Position numbers and translations under genes: made by a program
In this document: positions 4,716 to 46,638 of the stretch, piece after piece
How the letters are laid out: every line of letters starts with the position of its first letter
Numbering within the stretch: the first letter of the stretch is position 1
Notes under the pieces: generated by a model
Database searches by the model: none
Seen by the model: the letters and a program-made list of their open reading frames with translations, nothing else
Told to the model about the DNA's origin: nothing
Assembly: GCF_001945525.1 (NCBI RefSeq)
Contig: NZ_MPJW01000105.1
Span: forward strand, 1-46,638
From: Ileibacterium valens
Lineage (GTDB): Bacteria; Bacillota_I; Bacilli_A; Erysipelotrichales; Erysipelotrichaceae
Reading direction: 5' to 3'
Length of the DNA: 46,638 nt

Positions 4716-5591
4716 ATGACATTAACCATGAATAAGGATAAACTTGTTCGACAGTCCTTAAATGCCAAAGTCGATCATCCAAAAATCAAGGGATACCGAG
4801 GAAGTTTTGATGGAAAAGCCAGAATTTGTGTTTCGACAGGTGGGGTTACCTATACTCATCAGATTGGTGACAACTGTATGGATCTGGCTGGCGACCATAT
4901 TGAACCTGGTGTATCCATGGCTGCTTCAGATTCAGGAGAAAATGGAGCCGTTCAGTTTCTTTCCTGTGTGGGTAATGAAGTGGAATGCCTAAGCGGACCT
5001 GCAGCTGGTGCTAAAGGATTTGTGACTGGAACGCACGGTGGTGTGGATCATACCATGGCCTATTTTGATAAGGAAGATTTAGAAAAAATGAAAGGTAACG
5101 AAACTTTCTTTATTCAGGGATTTGGGCAGGGTTTAAAAGTGGAAGAGTGTCCCGAAGTCTTCTTTATGAATCTTGATCCAGATCTGCTTGAAGCAATGGA
5201 ACTTACCTTGGATGAAATGGGAAATTTACTCTTTCCTGTGACTCATATCATTCCAGCGGCATTAATGGGCAGCGGACTGGGCGCTTCGACAATCATGATG
5301 GGGGATTATGACATCATGACGCAGGATAAAGAGATCAACGAACAACTTGGATTAAATGGTCTGCGGTTTGGAGATATCATTGCGATTGAAGATCATGACT
5401 GTGAGTATGGACCACATTTAAAAAAAGGAGCCATGAGTATTGGTGTGATCGTCCATTCTGATTCATTTTCTTCAGGTCATGGACCAGGAGTAACTGTAAT
5501 TGCGACAAGTAAGAATGGAAAAATTACTCCCGTGATAACAGATCAGGCAAATCTGAAAAACTACTTTCCCAATATAAAAAGAGATTATTAA
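4716..5591 (+). CDS. DUF4438 domain-containing protein
   Basis: 291 residues and soluble, with no signal peptide. I recognise the DUF4438 family, known from structural genomics of a Thermotoga protein but without an established function. Characteristic segments are the glycine-rich GDNCMDLAGDHIEPGVS, GFVTGTHGGVDHTM and the C-terminal HSDSFSSGHGPGVTV. The His/Asp/Glu-rich IEDHDCEYGPHLKKG suggests possible metal binding, which is inference. The ATG follows AGAGGGAATCAG. A strong terminator at 5716-5752 closes the unit before priA. Confidence 0.8.
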   Translation: MTLTMNKDKLVRQSLNAKVDHPKIKGYRGSFDGKARICVSTGGVTYTHQIGDNCMDLAGDHIEPGVSMAASDSGENGAVQFLSCVGNEVECLSGPAAGAKGFVTGTHGGVDHTMAYFDKEDLEKMKGNETFFIQGFGQGLKVEECPEVFFMNLDPDLLEAMELTLDEMGNLLFPVTHIIPAALMGSGLGASTIMMGDYDIMTQDKEINEQLGLNGLRFGDIIAIEDHDCEYGPHLKKGAMSIGVIVHSDSFSSGHGPGVTVIATSKNGKITPVITDQANLKNYFPNIKRDY

Positions 5592-5715
5592 TCAGGAAAA
5601 GAATGCTTCATCCATTGAAGGGACTGGTCAGTTTTTTCTTGTTCCTGAGATAATGTGAATCTTTGGACTGAACTCAACGAATCATTTCGTATTCAATAGG
5701 ATACGATTCAATAAG

Positions 5716-5753
5716 AAAAAAAGCTGTTTTCGGCAAGGAAGCAGCTTTTTTTC
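5716..5753. terminator. Rho-independent terminator upstream of priA
   Basis: AAAAAAAGCTG (5716-5726) pairs with CAGCTTTTTTT (5742-5752). A/T tails on both sides would let it work in either direction. It closes the methyltransferase/DUF4438 unit; priA starts 22 bases later. Confidence 0.88.
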
Positions 5754-5757
5754 ATTT

Positions 5758-5766
5758 TGTTATAAT
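5758..5766 (+). promoter_or_regulatory. extended -10 promoter directly upstream of priA
   Basis: TGTTATAAT is a perfect extended -10 (TGnTATAAT). The priA ATG at 5775 begins 8 bases after it, putting the expected +1 within about two bases of the start codon. No -35 box is seen at 16-18 bases and no AGGAGG-like site precedes the ATG. Confidence 0.6.
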
Positions 5767-5774
5767 TGGGGTAT

Positions 5775-7928
5775 ATGTCCTATGTCCAAGTTATGATTGA
5801 ACACGAGGTCCTGTCATTGAACAGGCCTTTTACTTATTTCTGTTCATTTCCAATTCAAAAGGGATGCCGAATCCGCGTTCCGTTTTCTCATCGAATCTTA
5901 ATGGGGCTTGTCATTGAAGTTTCAGAGACCAAACCAGAAACCAGTTATGAAATACTTGATGCCATAGAAGCTGTTGATGAACATCCATTATTAAATGGAG
6001 AGCTTTTTGACCTGGCTTCTGAGCTTTCAAAAGACAGCGTTTCTTCTTTAATGTCCGTATTCAAGACAATGCTGCCTGCTGCCTACAAACCAGCCAGCAA
6101 AGCGGGTGGCGAAGTGTTTGAAACCTGGCTGATCAAGGATCCGATTCCTGAAGATGAGCTGCAGCGATTGAAACTGACTAAAAAACAAAAGGAAATCTAT
6201 GAGGCTCTTCCTTTGGAAATTATCCGCTCCAAAGCTCGCAAAGAGTTTTCAGCCAGTATTATCAAGACTCTTGAGGCAAAGGGGCTTCTTCGGCTTGAAA
6301 GCAAGCTGAAGACTTATCAGCTTGTTCATCAAAAAAAATTGAAGCAGCCTCCTGAGCTGACTGAATCGCAGCGTATGGCTTTATTTGCCATTGAGCATGG
6401 GGATCATCGCCCGTTTTTATTGCATGGGGTAACAGGAAGTGGCAAAACGGAAATCTTCTTTCGCCTGGCCCAGAAAGCGCTCGAACAAAAAAAGAGTGTT
6501 CTGCTCCTGGTCCCGGAAATTTCACTGACTCCAATGATGATTGAAAGAGTCTGCAGCCGTTTTGATGTTCCCGTCCTGGTTTTTCATTCCCGGCTAACCA
6601 AAGCAGAAATGGCTTCTGAATATCAGAAGGCTTTGCTGATGGATTATGGGATCGTAATTGGAACCCGCAAGGCGGTGTTTACTCCATTTAAGAATTTAGG
6701 TCTCATCATCATGGATGAAGAGCATGATTCAAGCTATAAACAGGACAATACACCAAAATATCATACAAGAGATGCTGCGATCTTTCGCGCCAACTATTGG
6801 CACTGTCCATTGATCCTGGCCAGTGCGACACCGTCTTTGGACTCCTATGCCAGAGCCGCTCGGGGAATTTATCAGCTGGTGGAAATGGAACGAAGAATCA
6901 GCAATACCGTTTCTGCGATTCATTTAATCGATATGAAAAGCGAAAGAAACATTGGCGGAATCAGTGTTCCTTTAATCCAACAGATTCAAAAAAGGCTCGA
7001 ACGAAAGGAAAAGACAATTCTGCTTCTGAACCGCCGCGGATTTATTCCAGTGATGAAGTGCGCTTCCTGTCAGGAAGTGCTGCTTTGTGAAGATTGTGGA
7101 ATTCCTCTTTCCTATCATAAAAAAGAACAGGCTTTAGTCTGCCATGTCTGCGGCAGGCATTATCCGGTTCCTGAAGTCTGCCCGAATTGTCATAAGCGAA
7201 ACTGGTCAGTGGTTGGTTTGGGAACGGAGCGGCTTGAAGAAAATGTTCGGGATCTGTTTCCTCAGGCGAAGATCGTTCGAATGGATGCCGATTCAACAAG
7301 AACAAAGAACGCCCATGAAATTCTGCTCAATGATTTTGAAGCGGATGGAGACATCCTGATTGGAACGCAGATGGTCGCAAAAGGCCTTGATTTTGAAAAG
7401 GTAACTCTTGTAGGAGTCCTGCAGGCGGATGCCGCTTTAGTCAGAGCTGACTATCGAGCCGCTGAAACGACTTATCAGATGCTCGAACAGGCCAGCGGCA
7501 GAGCCGGACGGGGAAGATATCCAGGAGAAGTTTATATCCAATCCTACAATCCGGAACATTATGTCATGCAGTCGATTGTTCATCATAACTATCTGGCTTT
7601 CTTTAAGCGGGAGATGAATTATCGGCACCTTGGAACTTATCCGCCATATATTTATATGGCCAGCCTGGTTTTCATCCATGAAGATCCGACTTTAGCCTAT
7701 TCGATGGCTGATCAATGGGTAAAAACTCTCCGTGAGCAGGGTGTTAATGTTTTTGGACCGCTCGAATTGAGCATGCGTCAAAAAAAGAGCCGTATCAGAA
7801 TTCTGATTAAAGATAAGTCGATTGAAAATTTAAGAAATACCTGCTGGCAAGTGGCGAAGAAACATCACGAAAAGAGTCGGCAGGTCAAACTGGAGATCAA
7901 TGTGAATCCAATGATGCTGGAGGAATAA
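5775..7928 (+). CDS. priA: primosomal protein N' (PriA), replication restart helicase
   Basis: 717 residues. A SF2 3'-5' DNA helicase that reloads the replisome at stalled forks. Order: N-terminal DNA-binding region (about 1-110), Walker A GVTGSGKTE, DEEH box in IIMDEEHDSSYKQD, then the zinc-binding cysteine array (CASC, CEDC, CHVC, CPNC) inserted in the second helicase lobe, and GRAGRG as motif VI. I start at ATG 5775 (MSYVQVMIEHEV); the in-frame TTG at 5766 overlaps the -10 box. Only GGGG precedes the ATG, so translation may be leaderless. It heads the operon with rsmB 2 bases downstream; the def and fmt genes often found between them in Firmicutes are absent. Confidence 0.95.
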   Translation: MSYVQVMIEHEVLSLNRPFTYFCSFPIQKGCRIRVPFSHRILMGLVIEVSETKPETSYEILDAIEAVDEHPLLNGELFDLASELSKDSVSSLMSVFKTMLPAAYKPASKAGGEVFETWLIKDPIPEDELQRLKLTKKQKEIYEALPLEIIRSKARKEFSASIIKTLEAKGLLRLESKLKTYQLVHQKKLKQPPELTESQRMALFAIEHGDHRPFLLHGVTGSGKTEIFFRLAQKALEQKKSVLLLVPEISLTPMMIERVCSRFDVPVLVFHSRLTKAEMASEYQKALLMDYGIVIGTRKAVFTPFKNLGLIIMDEEHDSSYKQDNTPKYHTRDAAIFRANYWHCPLILASATPSLDSYARAARGIYQLVEMERRISNTVSAIHLIDMKSERNIGGISVPLIQQIQKRLERKEKTILLLNRRGFIPVMKCASCQEVLLCEDCGIPLSYHKKEQALVCHVCGRHYPVPEVCPNCHKRNWSVVGLGTERLEENVRDLFPQAKIVRMDADSTRTKNAHEILLNDFEADGDILIGTQMVAKGLDFEKVTLVGVLQADAALVRADYRAAETTYQMLEQASGRAGRGRYPGEVYIQSYNPEHYVMQSIVHHNYLAFFKREMNYRHLGTYPPYIYMASLVFIHEDPTLAYSMADQWVKTLREQGVNVFGPLELSMRQKKSRIRILIKDKSIENLRNTCWQVAKKHHEKSRQVKLEINVNPMMLEE

Positions 7929-7930
7929 TC

Positions 7931-9151
7931 ATGAGAGAATGGCTGTGGAATGCATTATGTGAAGTGGTTCTTCATCAGACGTATTCGAATCTGTATCTTA
8001 AAAATCATCTGCAGGAATTGCCGGAAAAAGATCGAGCCTTAGCCAGCCGAATCTTTTATGGAACTCTGCAGAATTATGTCTATTGCAAAGCAGCCTGGCA
8101 GCGCTTTGCAAAAACGAAAGTTTCAGGAAAACTTCAGGTTTTACTGACCTTTTCAACCTATCAGCTGCTGTTTCTGGATAAAGTTCCAGAATATGCAGTC
8201 ATCAATGATGCGGTGGATCTGGTAAAAAAGAATTCATCAAAACAGGCATCATTTATTAATGCCATTCTTCGCAAAGTTACCAGGGAATACTTTGATCTTC
8301 CTGAAGATGAAATAAAGGCTCTGGCTCTGGAAACTTCGCTTCCAGAATGGCTTGTAAAAATGTGGAAAGCGCAGTATTCCATGGAAGAGGCAAAAGCTTT
8401 TGCTGAAGCTACTCTTGATACGCTTCCTGTCTATGCAGCCATTAACCCAACCAATCAGACAGCCGCATCAAGAAAAGAAATTGAATCCTGGCAAAAAGTA
8501 CAGGATGGATTATATGTTTATCCTAAAACTTCAGTAGCCAATGATCCGCTTTACAGGGAAGGCCGGATTTCCATTCTGGATCCTGGCAGCTATGCTATCG
8601 CTCTTTATGGAAATCCAAGTGAAAATGAAAAGGTTCTAGATCTTTGCGCAGCGCCTGGCAGCAAGACGATGATCATGGCGGAACAGATGAACAATTTAGG
8701 TCATATCGATGCCTATGATCTGCATGAACATCGTGCCAGACTGATTGAGCAGGATATGAACCGTCTGCATTTATCCAATATCAGCGCGAAGGCTGCTGAT
8801 TCAACAATGATTGAACCCACAAAGGATTATGATCTTGTCTTGTGTGATGTTCCATGTACAGGTTATGGCGTTCTGGCAAGAAAACCAGATATGAAATTAA
8901 GGCTGAATCCTGAAGATATGGATCAGTTGATTCCGCTTCAGGCTAAACTGCTTGAAAAGGGATCAGAAGCTGTGAAGACTGGAGGAAGACTTGTTTATTC
9001 CACTTGTACATTGAATAAAAAAGAAAACGAAAAGCAGGTCGAAAAATTCCTTAAGAATCATCCGGATTTTGAACTGGATGAACAGCAGACGCTTTATCCC
9101 GATGGAAATCACGACGGATTTTATATGGCCAGAATGATTCGTAAAAAATAA
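7931..9151 (+). CDS. rsmB: 16S rRNA m5C967 methyltransferase RsmB
   Basis: 406 residues. The N-terminal third is a NusB-like RNA-binding domain (residues about 1-130, including PEYAVINDAVDLVKK and FINAILRKV). The C-terminal part is the RNA m5C methyltransferase: SAM motif LDLCAAPGSKT, motif IV CDVPCTGYGVLARKPD with the conserved Pro-Cys, and the catalytic STCTL cysteine motif. It methylates C967 (E. coli numbering) of 16S rRNA. The GGAGGAA ribosome binding site overlaps the end of priA, indicating translational coupling. The next gene, rlmN, lies 199 A/T-rich bases downstream. Confidence 0.94.
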   Translation: MREWLWNALCEVVLHQTYSNLYLKNHLQELPEKDRALASRIFYGTLQNYVYCKAAWQRFAKTKVSGKLQVLLTFSTYQLLFLDKVPEYAVINDAVDLVKKNSSKQASFINAILRKVTREYFDLPEDEIKALALETSLPEWLVKMWKAQYSMEEAKAFAEATLDTLPVYAAINPTNQTAASRKEIESWQKVQDGLYVYPKTSVANDPLYREGRISILDPGSYAIALYGNPSENEKVLDLCAAPGSKTMIMAEQMNNLGHIDAYDLHEHRARLIEQDMNRLHLSNISAKAADSTMIEPTKDYDLVLCDVPCTGYGVLARKPDMKLRLNPEDMDQLIPLQAKLLEKGSEAVKTGGRLVYSTCTLNKKENEKQVEKFLKNHPDFELDEQQTLYPDGNHDGFYMARMIRKK

Positions 9152-42512: not shown

Positions 42513-42825
42513 TTGTTAATTGAAAATATAGCATTATTTATGTTAGATAAACTGATTAAAACGATTATTACAATAAACTTAAAAATATATTACTAATTTA
42601 AAATATTAAAATTAAAATTTGATCTCTCTCCTGTTTATAGTGATTGAACAGGAATTAATCCAGGACAATGGATATTTATACGATATCGTATTTGTTTTTA
42701 TGGATGTGGTTTAATGAAAAAGGAGATATCTATACTTTTAATCTGTTCTGGGTAGGAGACAATTTGAATTCAACCAGAAAGGTCAACCAAATAAACAAAA
42801 AATACAATTGCTGAGGAGATTATGA
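42513..42825. promoter_or_regulatory. very A/T-rich upstream region of the methyltransferase-helicase module
   Basis: No gene is seen. CCTGTT/AACAGG (42630-42652) can form a small hairpin, and 42678-42691 is a perfect 14-base palindrome (ATACGATATCGTAT), a plausible operator. An ATG at 42714 behind the palindrome opens only 13 codons, perhaps the relic of a leader or small regulator gene. GAGGAGA precedes the methyltransferase ATG. Confidence 0.4.
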
Positions 42826-43478
42826 ATGGATAGTCAGAACATAACATTAGAAACCAATGAAACGATTGAGTACTATAATCTGAATTCAAAAGCTTTCACC
42901 AATTCAACACAGAAAGCTTCTCTGTCAGATATTCATCAGGAGTTTATTTCAAGACTGCAGCCGAATTCCAGTATTCTTGATTTTGGCTGTGGGAGCGGAA
43001 GGGATAGTGCTGCATTCAAATCTCTAGGTTTTCAGGTGAGTGCAATTGATGGTTCTAAAAAGATGTGTGAAATCGCATCAGAATTTTCTGGTATCCCTGT
43101 AAAAAAATGCGTTTTGAAGAATTTAATCAGATCGATTCGTACGATGGAATCTGGGCCTGTGCAAGTCTGCTTCATCTTTCCTCAAAGAAGCTGCCAGAAG
43201 TCTTTCAATCATTGATGGATGGACTTCATGAAAAAGGAATCCTTTATTGTTCTTTTAAATATGGAGCATTTGAAGGTCTTCGAAATGGACGGTTTTTCCT
43301 GGATCTAAATGAAAAAGCTTTTCTTCAGATGATTTCATCAATTGAACAAGCGGATGTTTTAAAAATATGGTTGACTGAAGATGCCAGAAAAGAAAGGAAA
43401 AACGAGCAATGGCTCAATATATTGATTCAAAAGAAAACCGAATCACCTTTGGAAGTGACCAACAAAGCTGCTGGCTGA
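42826..43478 (+). pseudogene. class I SAM-dependent methyltransferase, frameshifted at an A7 tract
   Basis: The frame from 42826 encodes a SAM-binding domain: SSILDFGCGSGRDSAAF (motif I) and VSAIDGSKKMCEIAS. After the A7 tract at 43101-43107 this frame turns to nonsense, while the frame from 43107 continues the domain: SYDGIWACASLLHLSSKKL and KGILYCSFKYG, to 43478. Adding one A gives V-K-K-M-R-F-E-E-F and about 217 residues. Target unknown (TehB-like or nucleic acid). It overlaps the helicase gene by 70 bases. It may be a true lesion, a phase-variable tract or an assembly slip. Confidence 0.8.
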
Positions 43479-45899
43479 TCACTCCTTTGAAAAAGAGCCT
43501 CGCTAAAGCCTCGTCAATCGATTTCATTGTTTCCTTTGTGATGGTTTCTGGAGTTCGATTATTGATTGAGGATCTCAAGGAAGGTGCTAAAAGAAATGCA
43601 CAGATTCGAATCCTGTGCGGGAATACCTTAAACATTACTGAACCAGCCGCCTTAGCGATGCTTTACTACGAATTGCCTGAAAACATCGAGATTCGTTTTT
43701 ATACAGAAAACAGGCGCTCCTTTCATCCCAAGAGTTATTTATTCAGACGAGAAGATGGATAACAGGAAGCCTATATCGGTTCAAGCAATCTTTCTGCTTC
43801 GGCTCTGACCCGTTCGATCGAGTGGAACTATAGAATTGATGGTATACAAGATCAGCAGACCATCCATAAGATGCATCTTGAATTTGATCGTCTGTTTGAG
43901 CAGGCAAGAATTGTCGATGAAACTTTGTAGGAGGAATATTCAGAAAATTGGATCCGGCCAAAACTTTTAAATTCTCCAATCCTGGAAGAAAATTATAAAG
44001 GATCTGAAGAATCAGACATTTCAGAGAACCAATCGCAAAAATATAAAGTGATTGAGCCAAGGGATGCTCAGATTGAAGCGTTATACGCATTAAACAAAAC
44101 TCGTCAGGAAGGATATTCGAAAGCCTTGATTCAGGCTGCAACTGGTGTAGGAAAAACCTATCTGGCTGCTTTTGATTCACTGTCCTATCAGCGAATCTTA
44201 TTTGTGGCTCATCGTCAGGAAATCTTACTGCAGGCTGCAAAAGCTTTTAAAAAAATTCACCAGACAGAAAATATCGGCTTGCTCGATCAGGATCACAAGG
44301 ACCTGGATGCCAAGATTCTTATGGCTTCAGTCCTCACACTTTCATCGGATCAATATCTGAATCATGAAATTTTTTCCAGAAAGGCATTCGACTATATCGT
44401 AATCGATGAATTTCACCATGCTGCAGCAAAGTCCTATCAGAAAATCCTTGATTATCTTCAACCGAAATTTCTTTTAGGATTAAGTGCCACTCCAGAACGA
44501 ATGGACGGAAGAAGCGTTTATGCACTTTGTGACTTTAATGTGCCTTACAAGGTCGATCTTCAGAAAGCAATCAATCGATCATTGCTGGTTCCATTCCATT
44601 ACTATGCTATCTATGACGATACAGATTATTCTCAAATGAGAAAATCAGGTGGACGATTTGTCATTGAGGATCTTGAAAAAGCATATGAATCTTCAAAGAG
44701 CCGATCCTTATCCATCCTGAAGCATTATCGAAAGTATCCTTCAAAACAGGCAATTGGATTTTGCGCATCCAAAGCTCATGCTTCATTGATGGCGAGGTAT
44801 TTTACCGATAACGGAATACCGGAGCGCAGCAGTTTATTCCTCAAGTTCTAAGGATCCATATGCTCTTGAGAGAGCAGAGGCGATTTCACAGCTGCAGGAA
44901 GGGAAGAAACGCGTTCTGTTTACAGTAGATATGTTTAACGAAGGCGTCGATATCGAAACGATCGATATGGTCATGTTTCTTCGTCCGACTGAATCAAGTA
45001 CAATTTTTCTGCAGCAGCTGGGTCGAGGCCTGCGTCTTTCAAAAGGTAAAAAATATCTGACTGTGCTTGACTTCATTGGCAACTATGAGAGGGCGTTTTT
45101 AAGTGCGGCCTTACTCAGTAAAGGAGTGAAAAAGGCAAACAGTCTGGTATCTATTCACCAGCTTTCATTACCTGAAGGATGTCTTTACGATTTTGATCTT
45201 GAACTGATCGATCTGTTCGAAAAGATCAAAAAATCCAAACGAACCAAATCAGAGTGGATCAAGGATGAATATTATCGAATCAGACAGACCATCGAGCATA
45301 GACCTTCTCAAAGAGAATTCTTCGAAAATATGGAAGATGAGCTGCTTGATATCATTCTTCGTGAATCTTCTCTGAATCCTTTTCAAAATTATCTTGCCTT
45401 CTTAAGTGGATTAGGAGAATTGAATGAAGAAGAAAAAATACTGATGAATTCAATGGCAGGAAAGTTCATTCATTGTATTGAAACAACTGCCATGAGCCGC
45501 GTCTATAAGATGCCAGTCTTAATGAGTCTGATCGATCAGGAACATCAGGTGATTCGTATGGAAGTTTCGGATAAGAAGATGCTTGAGTAATGGAAGAGCT
45601 TTTTTTCCAAAAATGAGAACTGGAAAGATCTGAGCAAAAAAGGTCAGAATCTAAGTTTTCAAGAATACAAACAAATTACTGATCGTGCACATCTTCAGAA
45701 GATTCGCTCACAGCCTGTTCATTTTCTGACTCACAGCGAAGCAGAGTTTTTTTCTTACGAAGATCATCATCTGATTTTAAATTCATCATTAAGGGATTTT
45801 CAAAGTAATCTGATCTTCTTTGAATGGATTAAAAATGTCGTTGAATTCAGAAGTGTGCTGTATTACTTTTCCCGTTTTCAAAAGAAATTACTCGATTAA
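43409..45899 (+). pseudogene. PLD-like nuclease/SF2 helicase (DUF3427-type), broken by three stops and a frameshift
   Basis: About 829 codons from ATG 43409. The N-terminal phospholipase-D-like domain has HPKSYLF (HxK) and YIGSSNLSASAL. The helicase follows: Walker A QAATGVGKTYL, DEFHH box IVIDEFHHAA, GLSATPERMDGRS, and lobe 2 NEGVDIETIDMV and QQLGRGLRLS. Lesions: TAA 43760-43762, TAG 43928-43930, an extra G near 44818-44822 shifting the frame, and TAA 45588-45590. Reading continues in frame to TAA at 45897. The family often has a longer DUF3427 C-terminus, so the 3' end may also be lost. Such proteins occur in DNA repair and phage-defence settings. Confidence 0.85.
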
Positions 45900-45937: not shown

Positions 45938-45989
45938 GGATGATTCATTTTTTTCTGTTTTCCAGGATTGATATGAATCATCCTTTTTT
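45938..45989 (+). terminator. Rho-independent terminator after the helicase relic
   Basis: GGATGATTCA (45938-45947) pairs perfectly with TGAATCATCC (45974-45983), followed by TTTTTT. The termination signal stays intact although the gene is broken. Confidence 0.88.
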
Positions 45990-46118: not shown

Positions 46119-46236
46119 GATTTTTAACACAAGCAGTGGAGTTGCTCCAAAAGTTTATAAATTATCCGAATATAGCACTTGACAGACCGAAGCTCGGAAC
46201 TAATCCATAATCCGAAGGATTTCGGAGGTGGTTATT

Positions 46237-46638
46237 TTGACCCATTCGAAATCCCCTAAACAGTATCGCCAAATCTTCTATTCTTACCTGGACGGTCTGG
46301 CAGACTGCCCGGATCGTTCCCTGATTGAAGGCGAAGCCTTCACGCGAAACAGAAAAATTGGCCTTTCCCGTATTGCTCGTTTTATCGCTTCTCTGACAAG
46401 CGGCTCTATTCGCCAGCAGAATCTGACTTACTTCAAGACGCATAAAATCCAGGTCACTGACTCTGCCATATGTCAGGCTCGAAGCAAGTTCGACCACACA
46501 GTTTTAAAGACCGCCTGTCTGGGCTTTACTGATGAGCTTGTTCAGGAATCTCCTTTATTCAAAGGAAAATACAGACTCATTGGCGTAGACGGATCCAACT
46601 TTCCAATCCTGCCCAATCCTGATGAACCTCAGAACTGT
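46237..46638 (+). CDS. IS4-like transposase, N-terminal part (partial)
   Basis: 134 codons to the window edge. The N-terminal helical region (PKQYRQIFYSYLDGLADCPD) is followed by SAICQARSKF and LIGVDGSNF, whose Asp is the expected first residue of the DDE catalytic triad. The start is TTG at 46237 behind GGAGGTGG. The hairpin CCGAA-GGAT-TTCGG (46212-46225) ends on that ribosome binding site and would limit translation, a common way for transposases to be kept low. TTGACA at 46179-46184 is a candidate -35. Confidence 0.85.
   Translation, partial: MTHSKSPKQYRQIFYSYLDGLADCPDRSLIEGEAFTRNRKIGLSRIARFIASLTSGSIRQQNLTYFKTHKIQVTDSAICQARSKFDHTVLKTACLGFTDELVQESPLFKGKYRLIGVDGSNFPILPNPDEPQNC

Follow-up and report, generated by a model that had tools for sequence, protein, structure and literature searches.

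The window considered here, the whole stretch of DNA that was analysed, is the entire contig NZ_MPJW01000105.1 (46,638 nt, C236) of Ileibacterium valens, the genome of which is available as 2.74 Mb in 291 contigs. Positions 42826-45899 are occupied by two overlapping and broken genes, both on the plus strand, the first encoding a class I S-adenosylmethionine (SAM) methyltransferase (MTase) and the second a helicase with a phospholipase D-like (PLD) nuclease domain and a superfamily 2 (SF2) motor. Their pieces are as follows.

42826..43215, plus strand: 5′ piece of the MTase gene with the SAM-binding motif DFGCGSGRD (Pfam Methyltransf_25, 1.3e-6; 46% identity to the intact MTase of locus L003); it extends past the frame change
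43101..43107, plus strand: A-run at which the MTase frame changes (from the sequence; the pieces on both sides align to the family)
43107..43478, plus strand: 3′ piece of the MTase gene (WACASLLH to an EQWLN tail), matching the intact family; its end overlaps the helicase start
43409..43762, plus strand: helicase piece 1, PLD nuclease domain (FHPK; PLDc_2, 1.1e-6), closed by an in-frame TAA at 43760-43762
43763..43930, plus strand: helicase piece 2, remainder of the PLD domain (GSSN), closed by an in-frame TAG at 43928-43930 (by frame reading)
43931..44851, plus strand: helicase piece 3, first RecA-like domain of the SF2 motor (GVGKT, DEFHH; ResIII, 2.7e-37; 58% identity to intact L003)
44823..45590, plus strand: helicase piece 4, second RecA-like domain (QQLGRGLR) with the beginning of the coupler, closed by an in-frame TAA at 45588-45590 (by frame reading)
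45591..45899, plus strand: helicase piece 5, end of the coupler to the natural stop at 45899, with no space for an SRA/DUF3427 region before that stop

The two MTase open reading frames (ORFs) represent a single protein split over two frames, based on Pfam and on alignment to the family; the 3′ piece (43107-43478) gave no Pfam match when scanned alone. The helicase ATG at 43409 gives MAQ, the start also found in the consensus of 33 intact helicases, and the two genes overlap by exactly 70 nt (43409-43478), in full agreement with the original prediction, made from these letters alone, of a 70-base overlap between two broken genes. The frame opened at 43409 closes at 44849-44851, with the helicase frame change located between ~44815 and 44823, and the lesions are as originally counted, namely three in-frame stops and one frame change in the helicase gene and one frame change in the MTase gene. 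The accompanying argument, that this is real decay rather than a single read error, is borne out by these five lesions.

Of the 43 columns without variation across 31 aligned MTases, the window MTase retains 42 and three intact relatives 43/43; the window helicase retains 229/277 invariant columns, with 268/277, 255/276 and 259/277 in three intact relatives. Helicase_C is found in the broken helicase only at 0.0022, below the Pfam cut-off. ORFs occupy 86% of the window and, judged from the ORF map rather than by gene-by-gene comparison with homologues, the other genes look open, so the damage appears to be local to this locus. Given this normal ORF map, and since the helicase lesions lie outside homopolymers, a general assembly error is unlikely; the sole MTase lesion falls within the A-run, and for that lesion alone a read error or slippage is conceivable. 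The window copy is dead or nearly so, with four lesions arguing against a working helicase, and with the helicase broken the unit is presumably non-functional in I. valens. Searches of this genome did not show a second, intact copy; apart from the window pieces they matched one longer SauUSI-like gene, cut by the contig end at the start of C245, and distant helicases, and no further place matching the MTase family was found at E up to 1e-15.

Intact homologues document the arrangement from which this copy decayed. In 60 genomes searched, that of I. valens included, there are three intact helicases (815-832 aa) with 55-58% identity to the window motor piece, and each is preceded by an MTase of ~200 aa, with overlaps of 31, 8 and 31 nt. 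Scanned with these three as queries, species genomes yielded 241 confirmed relatives. The best 80 were used, their loci fetched by the helicase alone; the record titles mostly name Lachnospiraceae or genera within that family. A full MTase is present upstream in 72 of these 80 loci and overlaps the helicase in 70, by 28-79 nt and most commonly by 31 nt, consistent with the predicted two-gene operon and contradicting the possibility, raised with that prediction, that the two genes would never be found adjacent. The two exceptions, L060 and L120, have an extra gene between MTase and helicase; in L060 (3733-8484) this is a DUF1016/YhcG-type gene, and a stump of the MTase end persists before the helicase. 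In the eight loci that have no full MTase upstream, the helicase either runs off the contig start (L043, L102), follows a 57-residue MTase stump (L050) or is preceded by other sequence (L045, L062, L079, L111, L118). Four more distant helicases (38-43%) also adjoin an MTase, located upstream, downstream or divergently, and the pair occurs in Pseudoalteromonas and Aeromonas records of a plasmid collection. In Polaromonas pW11NP2, one coding sequence (585 aa) contains both MTase and PLD-helicase in a single chain. The MTase-helicase pair is, judged from these intact sequences, a genuine one.

The helicase resembles SauUSI, a type IV restriction enzyme dependent on 5-methylcytosine (5mC) or 5-hydroxymethylcytosine, with which it shares the PLD nuclease, the SF2 ATPase and a helical coupler. 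By sequence it matches SauUSI (PDB 7CLG) at 2.9e-96 over query residues 25-633, and the PADLOC model mREase_IV at 4.1e-102. Residues 34-833 of the predicted model of an intact relative align to 7CLG residues 35-798 with Z 19.8 over 382 residues and a root mean square deviation of 14.9, which probably reflects differently placed domains; as the full-length model is only fair (pLDDT 68.5, pTM 0.36, with a helical C-terminal part at pLDDT ~90), this structural match rests on the individual domains. The N-terminal PLD domain (PLDc_2) is present in the window piece and in the intact relatives, Pfam recognizes the ResIII/Helicase_C ATPase of the SauUSI type, and the model alignment places a helical coupler after the ATPase, based on bounds given in the accessible part of PMC7913695, in which residues 618-805 of SauUSI form the coupler and 806-953 the SRA domain. 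What follows differs. Beyond motif VI, 75 short proteins continue for 278-293 residues and 18 long ones for 395-426, so that the short, MTase-linked proteins end ~130 residues earlier than the long SauUSI-type helicases. DUF3427, which covers the SRA region, is absent from all four short proteins scanned and present in all three long proteins scanned from the same loci. The short helicases thus read, by sequence, as SauUSI-like proteins that are without the methyl-DNA-reading SRA domain. The long SauUSI-type helicases had no MTase in 20 loci inspected, with flanks of ~1.5 kb, or shorter at contig ends. In L194 (6604-9555), from a Pseudoalteromonas plasmid, the PLD-SF2 helicase carries an S24-peptidase-like domain at its C-terminus rather than DUF3427, and adjoins an MTase and an ABC-three-component system.

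The MTase is mostly annotated, in the annotated records examined, just as a class I SAM-dependent methyltransferase. The nearest solved structure to its model is RPA2492 (PDB 3e23; Z 28.3, 193 residues, 31% identity; 1.7e-23 by sequence), a protein named only as uncharacterised, and that name was not found in the literature searched. No DNA MTase was seen among the 50 structures listed for the MTase model, which alone proves nothing. In DNA MTases, motif IV is [DNS]PP[YFW] for amino-MTases and PC for C5-MTases. By this generally known signature, [DNS]PP[YFW] is present in none of the 31 aligned MTases, in which strand 4 is followed by WAC(S/A)S; PC was judged by eye only. When the single-protein models of PADLOC-DB 2.0.0 were applied to three of the MTases, the sole match was to mad2 (2e-14 to 2e-16), over approximately positions 288-406 of 492 and so only one domain's worth of Mad2. 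An assignment to MADS would call for a full-length Mad2 with adjacent mad genes, but the Mad2 match is partial and mad3 is no commoner near the pair than in controls; literature searches on MADS yielded nothing.

A profile of the METHYLTRANSFERASE matched 26 of 344 genomes, that of the window included. Among 28 MTase places read in relatives, the two window pieces excluded, 15 have a nuclease gene directly adjoining the MTase gene, namely one PLD-helicase, six of a second SF2 helicase, seven of an HNH_4 type and one PvuRts1I-like SRA enzyme. In plasmids, where the MTase matched 77 records, 16 regions were read, selected among the 21 best hits; a nuclease adjoins the MTase in 12 of them (nine HNH, two PLD-helicase and one fused) and is not seen beside it in four (H11, H17, H19, H21). 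The N-terminus of the second SF2 helicase we take, by eye, to be a putative PD-(D/E)XK nuclease, Pfam showing only the helicase. Four HNH partners were scanned with PADLOC; two matched Cas9 models only and two matched nothing.

Partners have been exchanged repeatedly. On a tree of 70 MTase rows, 14 changes are needed to account for the three main partner types, and the starred branches alone force three (PLD-helicase), four (HNH) and four (second helicase) partner switches, the tree being partly resolved, with 25 of 67 inner branches open. Two Pseudoalteromonas MTases that are 82% identical have different partners, a PLD-helicase and an HNH protein. Viral contigs gave three matches for the MTase, two with an HNH gene (L181, and L182 with one ORF between) and one with none (L183), and nine for the helicase. 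There are four loci (L195, L210, L182, L050) in which the nuclease ORF is open with a broken or truncated MTase. Several individual loci add detail. In L174 (404-1186) the HNH partner is broken before the HNH motif, is 82% identical to an open copy in L175, and has a PbeA-like PLD-helicase downstream; MTase-HNH pairs in L158 (309-2495) and L168 (1480-3548) are accompanied by a gene that, by eye, is MazG-like; and L201 (4121-9095), a faecal scaffold deposited as phage, an origin that is unverified, has a GmrSD_N gene, an MTase and the second SF2 helicase in a row.

The surroundings of these loci include genes of recognized defence systems. Acinetobacter plasmids have MTase-HNH pairs in L196 (4998-6594), L195 (5001-6592; HNH_4 confirmed by Pfam, MTase broken and HNH gene open), L213 (3501-5140) and L214 (3498-5082), with BREX genes following immediately after two of the Acinetobacter MTase-HNH loci and cas1f/cas3 after one, and one cyanobacterial MTase is near cas1/cas2. 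A long SauUSI-type helicase is nearby in five of the 80 helicase loci, in two cases truncated where the locus ends; full-length examples with DUF3427 lie beside the pair in L042 (1729-8454), L049 (1789-8427) and L097 (5351-11420). In L042, from the gut commensal Faecalicatena contorta, the intact MTase occupies 5366-5971 and the short helicase 5941-8454. PADLOC was also applied to 109 neighbouring proteins, taken at random among those <800 aa from 258 candidates, with loci containing runs of at least 20 N skipped, and to 109 controls, the first in a list of 123 candidates. The controls come from nine of the ten genomes in which the MTase is missing from the locus or separated from the helicase, and so do not match the 80 as a sample. 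There were 52 families matched among neighbours and 40 among controls, a comparison that is qualitative, with only 25 named in each set. Those named for the neighbours include DrmB, BrxL, BrxP, AbiO/Nhi, SpbK, UzuA, AbiD, LmuA and AbiEi, and those for the controls PD-T4-6, SspA/DndA, mad3, mad6, PDC-S01 and a kinase model, families that in our judgement chiefly have housekeeping cousins. Both mad3 and PDC-S01 are in both listings, with mad3-like proteins at 2/109 in each. The suggestion of a modification/defence or repair unit is only partly upheld: homology to SauUSI and neighbours of the BREX, CRISPR and DrmB kind support defence, whereas a classical modification role is in doubt, the generally known amino-MTase signature of motif IV being absent, and repair has little support of its own.

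Like HsdR of Type I systems, which works with HsdM and HsdS and is a distant sequence match to the helicase (3h1t, 8.3e-25), the motor-nuclease is without its own target reader and would need a partner; in contrast, the nuclease here is a PLD domain rather than the PD-(D/E)XK generally known for HsdR, and the MTase falls outside the N6-adenine type, with no specificity subunit seen beside it. An archaeal system documented in the accessible part of PMC7641849 similarly combines a helicase-nuclease (PLD or PD-(D/E)XK) with an MTase in one operon, but, compared by description, has a SWI2/SNF2-clade helicase, a COG1743 MTase and an additional DUF499 ATPase. SauUSI itself functions as a single sufficient polypeptide according to the accessible part of PMC3874153; the unit described here differs in having no SRA domain and in being paired with an MTase gene.

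The SRA domain is the part of SauUSI that locates 5mC and turns on the motor. We suggest that the window contains a decayed copy of a conserved restriction-like unit in which the MTase would supply in trans the choice of target that the SRA domain of SauUSI supplies in cis, a reading to which we assign a probability of about 0.4. Gene 1 is a stand-alone class I SAM MTase and gene 2 a SauUSI-derived PLD nuclease-SF2 translocase that has kept nuclease, motor and coupler without the SRA domain; an encounter of the MTase with its substrate, or the product of that reaction, would steer or license the motor-nuclease onto foreign DNA. As a motor-nuclease without an SRA domain stays overlapped with the MTase gene, and once is fused to it, and as the same MTase family also accompanies nucleases that have other folds, the MTase as the discrimination step is the simplest reading. 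The unit would presumably act against phages or plasmids, with the two proteins in a physical complex; a role of the MTase in activation rather than protection is suggested by the four loci in which the nuclease ORF is open and the MTase damaged.

Several observations weigh against this proposal. Six helicases, all with upstream sequence (those of L045, L050, L062, L079, L111 and L118), have no adjacent full MTase and may work alone; an MTase is present elsewhere in the genome for L045, L050 and L062, and none was found in the incomplete assemblies of the L079, L111 and L118 genomes. The MTase family also lives alone, with 13 of the 28 places having no directly adjacent nuclease. In L152 (from genome G041) a long SauUSI-type helicase does have an MTase upstream, in the order MTase, thioredoxin-like gene, NUDIX-like gene (both by eye) and helicase. 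In viral contig L184 (4572-8228) a related SF2 helicase, with 44% identity in the motor and no PLD match, has a true N6/N4 DNA MTase (3.1e-56) immediately downstream, and is the only viral helicase match with a DNA-MTase motif in a nearby ORF. The motifs and fold of the MTase point neither to DNA nor to protein as a substrate, and its closest structure, 3e23, is functionally uncharacterised. The neighbour-control contrast obtained with PADLOC is qualitative only. As evidence, the four loci with an open nuclease and a damaged MTase are weakened in two ways: the damage may reflect read errors, or an MTase from elsewhere may help, one being present in the genome of L050.

A broader claim, that several unrelated nucleases share one non-DNA-type MTase family as an interchangeable subunit for recognition or licensing, is somewhat unlikely to hold. 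Those served would be the SRA-less SauUSI-type proteins, Cas9-like HNH_4 proteins, the second SF2 helicase with its putative nuclease domain and occasionally a PvuRts1I-type enzyme.

Of comparably low probability is an arrangement closer to classical restriction-modification (RM), in which host DNA bears a mark that the MTase places through some unrecognised chemistry, and DNA without it is cut by the SRA-less motor-nuclease, as HsdR does in type I systems. The coupling of MTase and nuclease genes, arranged and overlapping like those of RM operons in 70/80 loci, the exchange of nucleases on one MTase family and the absence from the helicase of a domain reading methylated DNA are all consistent with this, and L184 favours classical RM for at least a cousin. 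Protection is nevertheless the less likely role, because motif IV, by its generally known signature, is absent from the MTase (0/31) and nucleases remain open beside broken MTases in four loci; in addition, an MTase of ~200 residues has no separate target-recognition domain, and three helicase-bearing genomes, in incomplete assemblies, yielded no MTase. It is improbable that the pair is toxin-antitoxin-like, with the MTase neutralising the nuclease by binding or methylating it. A small upstream overlapping gene, a natural fusion and a patchy distribution would fit, but the nuclease stays open with a broken or truncated MTase in four loci, and a single antitoxin family governing PLD, HNH and SF2-helicase proteins would be unusual. 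Still less probable is a role in DNA repair or nucleotide clean-up, as an MTase/helicase/nuclease set for alkylated or damaged bases. MazG-like genes (by eye) beside MTase and HNH genes in two loci, NUDIX-like genes (by eye) in L152 between MTase and helicase and in L111 upstream of the helicase, and the presence of RadD and XPB among the distant helicase matches point that way, but restriction enzymes are the best matches by a wide margin, the distribution is patchy (the 26/344 genomes above), the neighbours include BREX and CRISPR, and NUDIX (MutT) genes beside SauUSI homologues are already in print, in the accessible part of PMC7641849. Finally, an assembly error or recoding that conceals genes intact in the cell is very improbable, the A-run lesion and the 42/43 invariant residues kept by the MTase being outweighed by five lesions of differing kinds in 3 kb of a contig with an otherwise normal ORF map, by ordinary neighbouring ORFs that terminate at TAA and TAG, and by a helicase below its intact relatives in invariant columns, as for relaxed or more divergent sequence. 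Recoding of the stops was rejected, since the same codons close neighbouring ORFs and the frame change would still be unexplained.

Two features flank the unit, and both had been put forward as framing it.

42678..42691, no strand assigned: 14-nt perfect palindrome, a single copy, not counted as part of the unit
45938..45983, plus strand: intrinsic terminator, arms 45938-45948/45973-45983 (11-bp perfect stem) followed by T6

The palindrome is at chance level, with ~2.8 perfect 14-nt palindromes (46638/4^7) expected in a window of this length, and is rejected as a regulatory site. The terminator is credible, with a fold of -19.2 kcal/mol and z -3.7; a consensus terminator scan confined to loops of 3-8 did not list it. 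Beyond it, positions 46160-46638 are the left portion of an insertion sequence (IS), within which the contig ends. IS-like DNA is present at 22 places in the genome, this one counted, many of them exactly at contig ends, and several matches of just 142 or ~350 bases hint at short derivatives or at assembly breaks inside the IS. An empty insertion site could not be defined, as the upstream HAD gene was matched only at 39-41%, in two of 36 other genomes searched.

A pairing of this MTase with a PLD-helicase was not described in the literature searched, which held few subscription papers and included the accessible parts of PMC12839542, PMC7913695, PMC7641849, PMC3874153 and PMC7159879; this is weak evidence. 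According to the accessible part of PMC7913695, SauUSI is reported to be a major obstacle to gene transfer in Staphylococcus aureus, homologues occur in many lineages, and the SRA domain sets where it acts. A widespread SRA-less branch with an overlapping MTase gene offers a direct test of how such motor-nucleases are targeted. That this MTase also adjoins HNH and further nucleases, in some cases near BREX or CRISPR genes, suggests an accessory and, if the MTase is indeed an exchangeable subunit, there would be a modular class of restriction systems in which the target is chosen by a methylation reaction and not by a DNA-reading domain. In I. valens, the window copy shows such a unit decaying beside a multi-copy insertion sequence.

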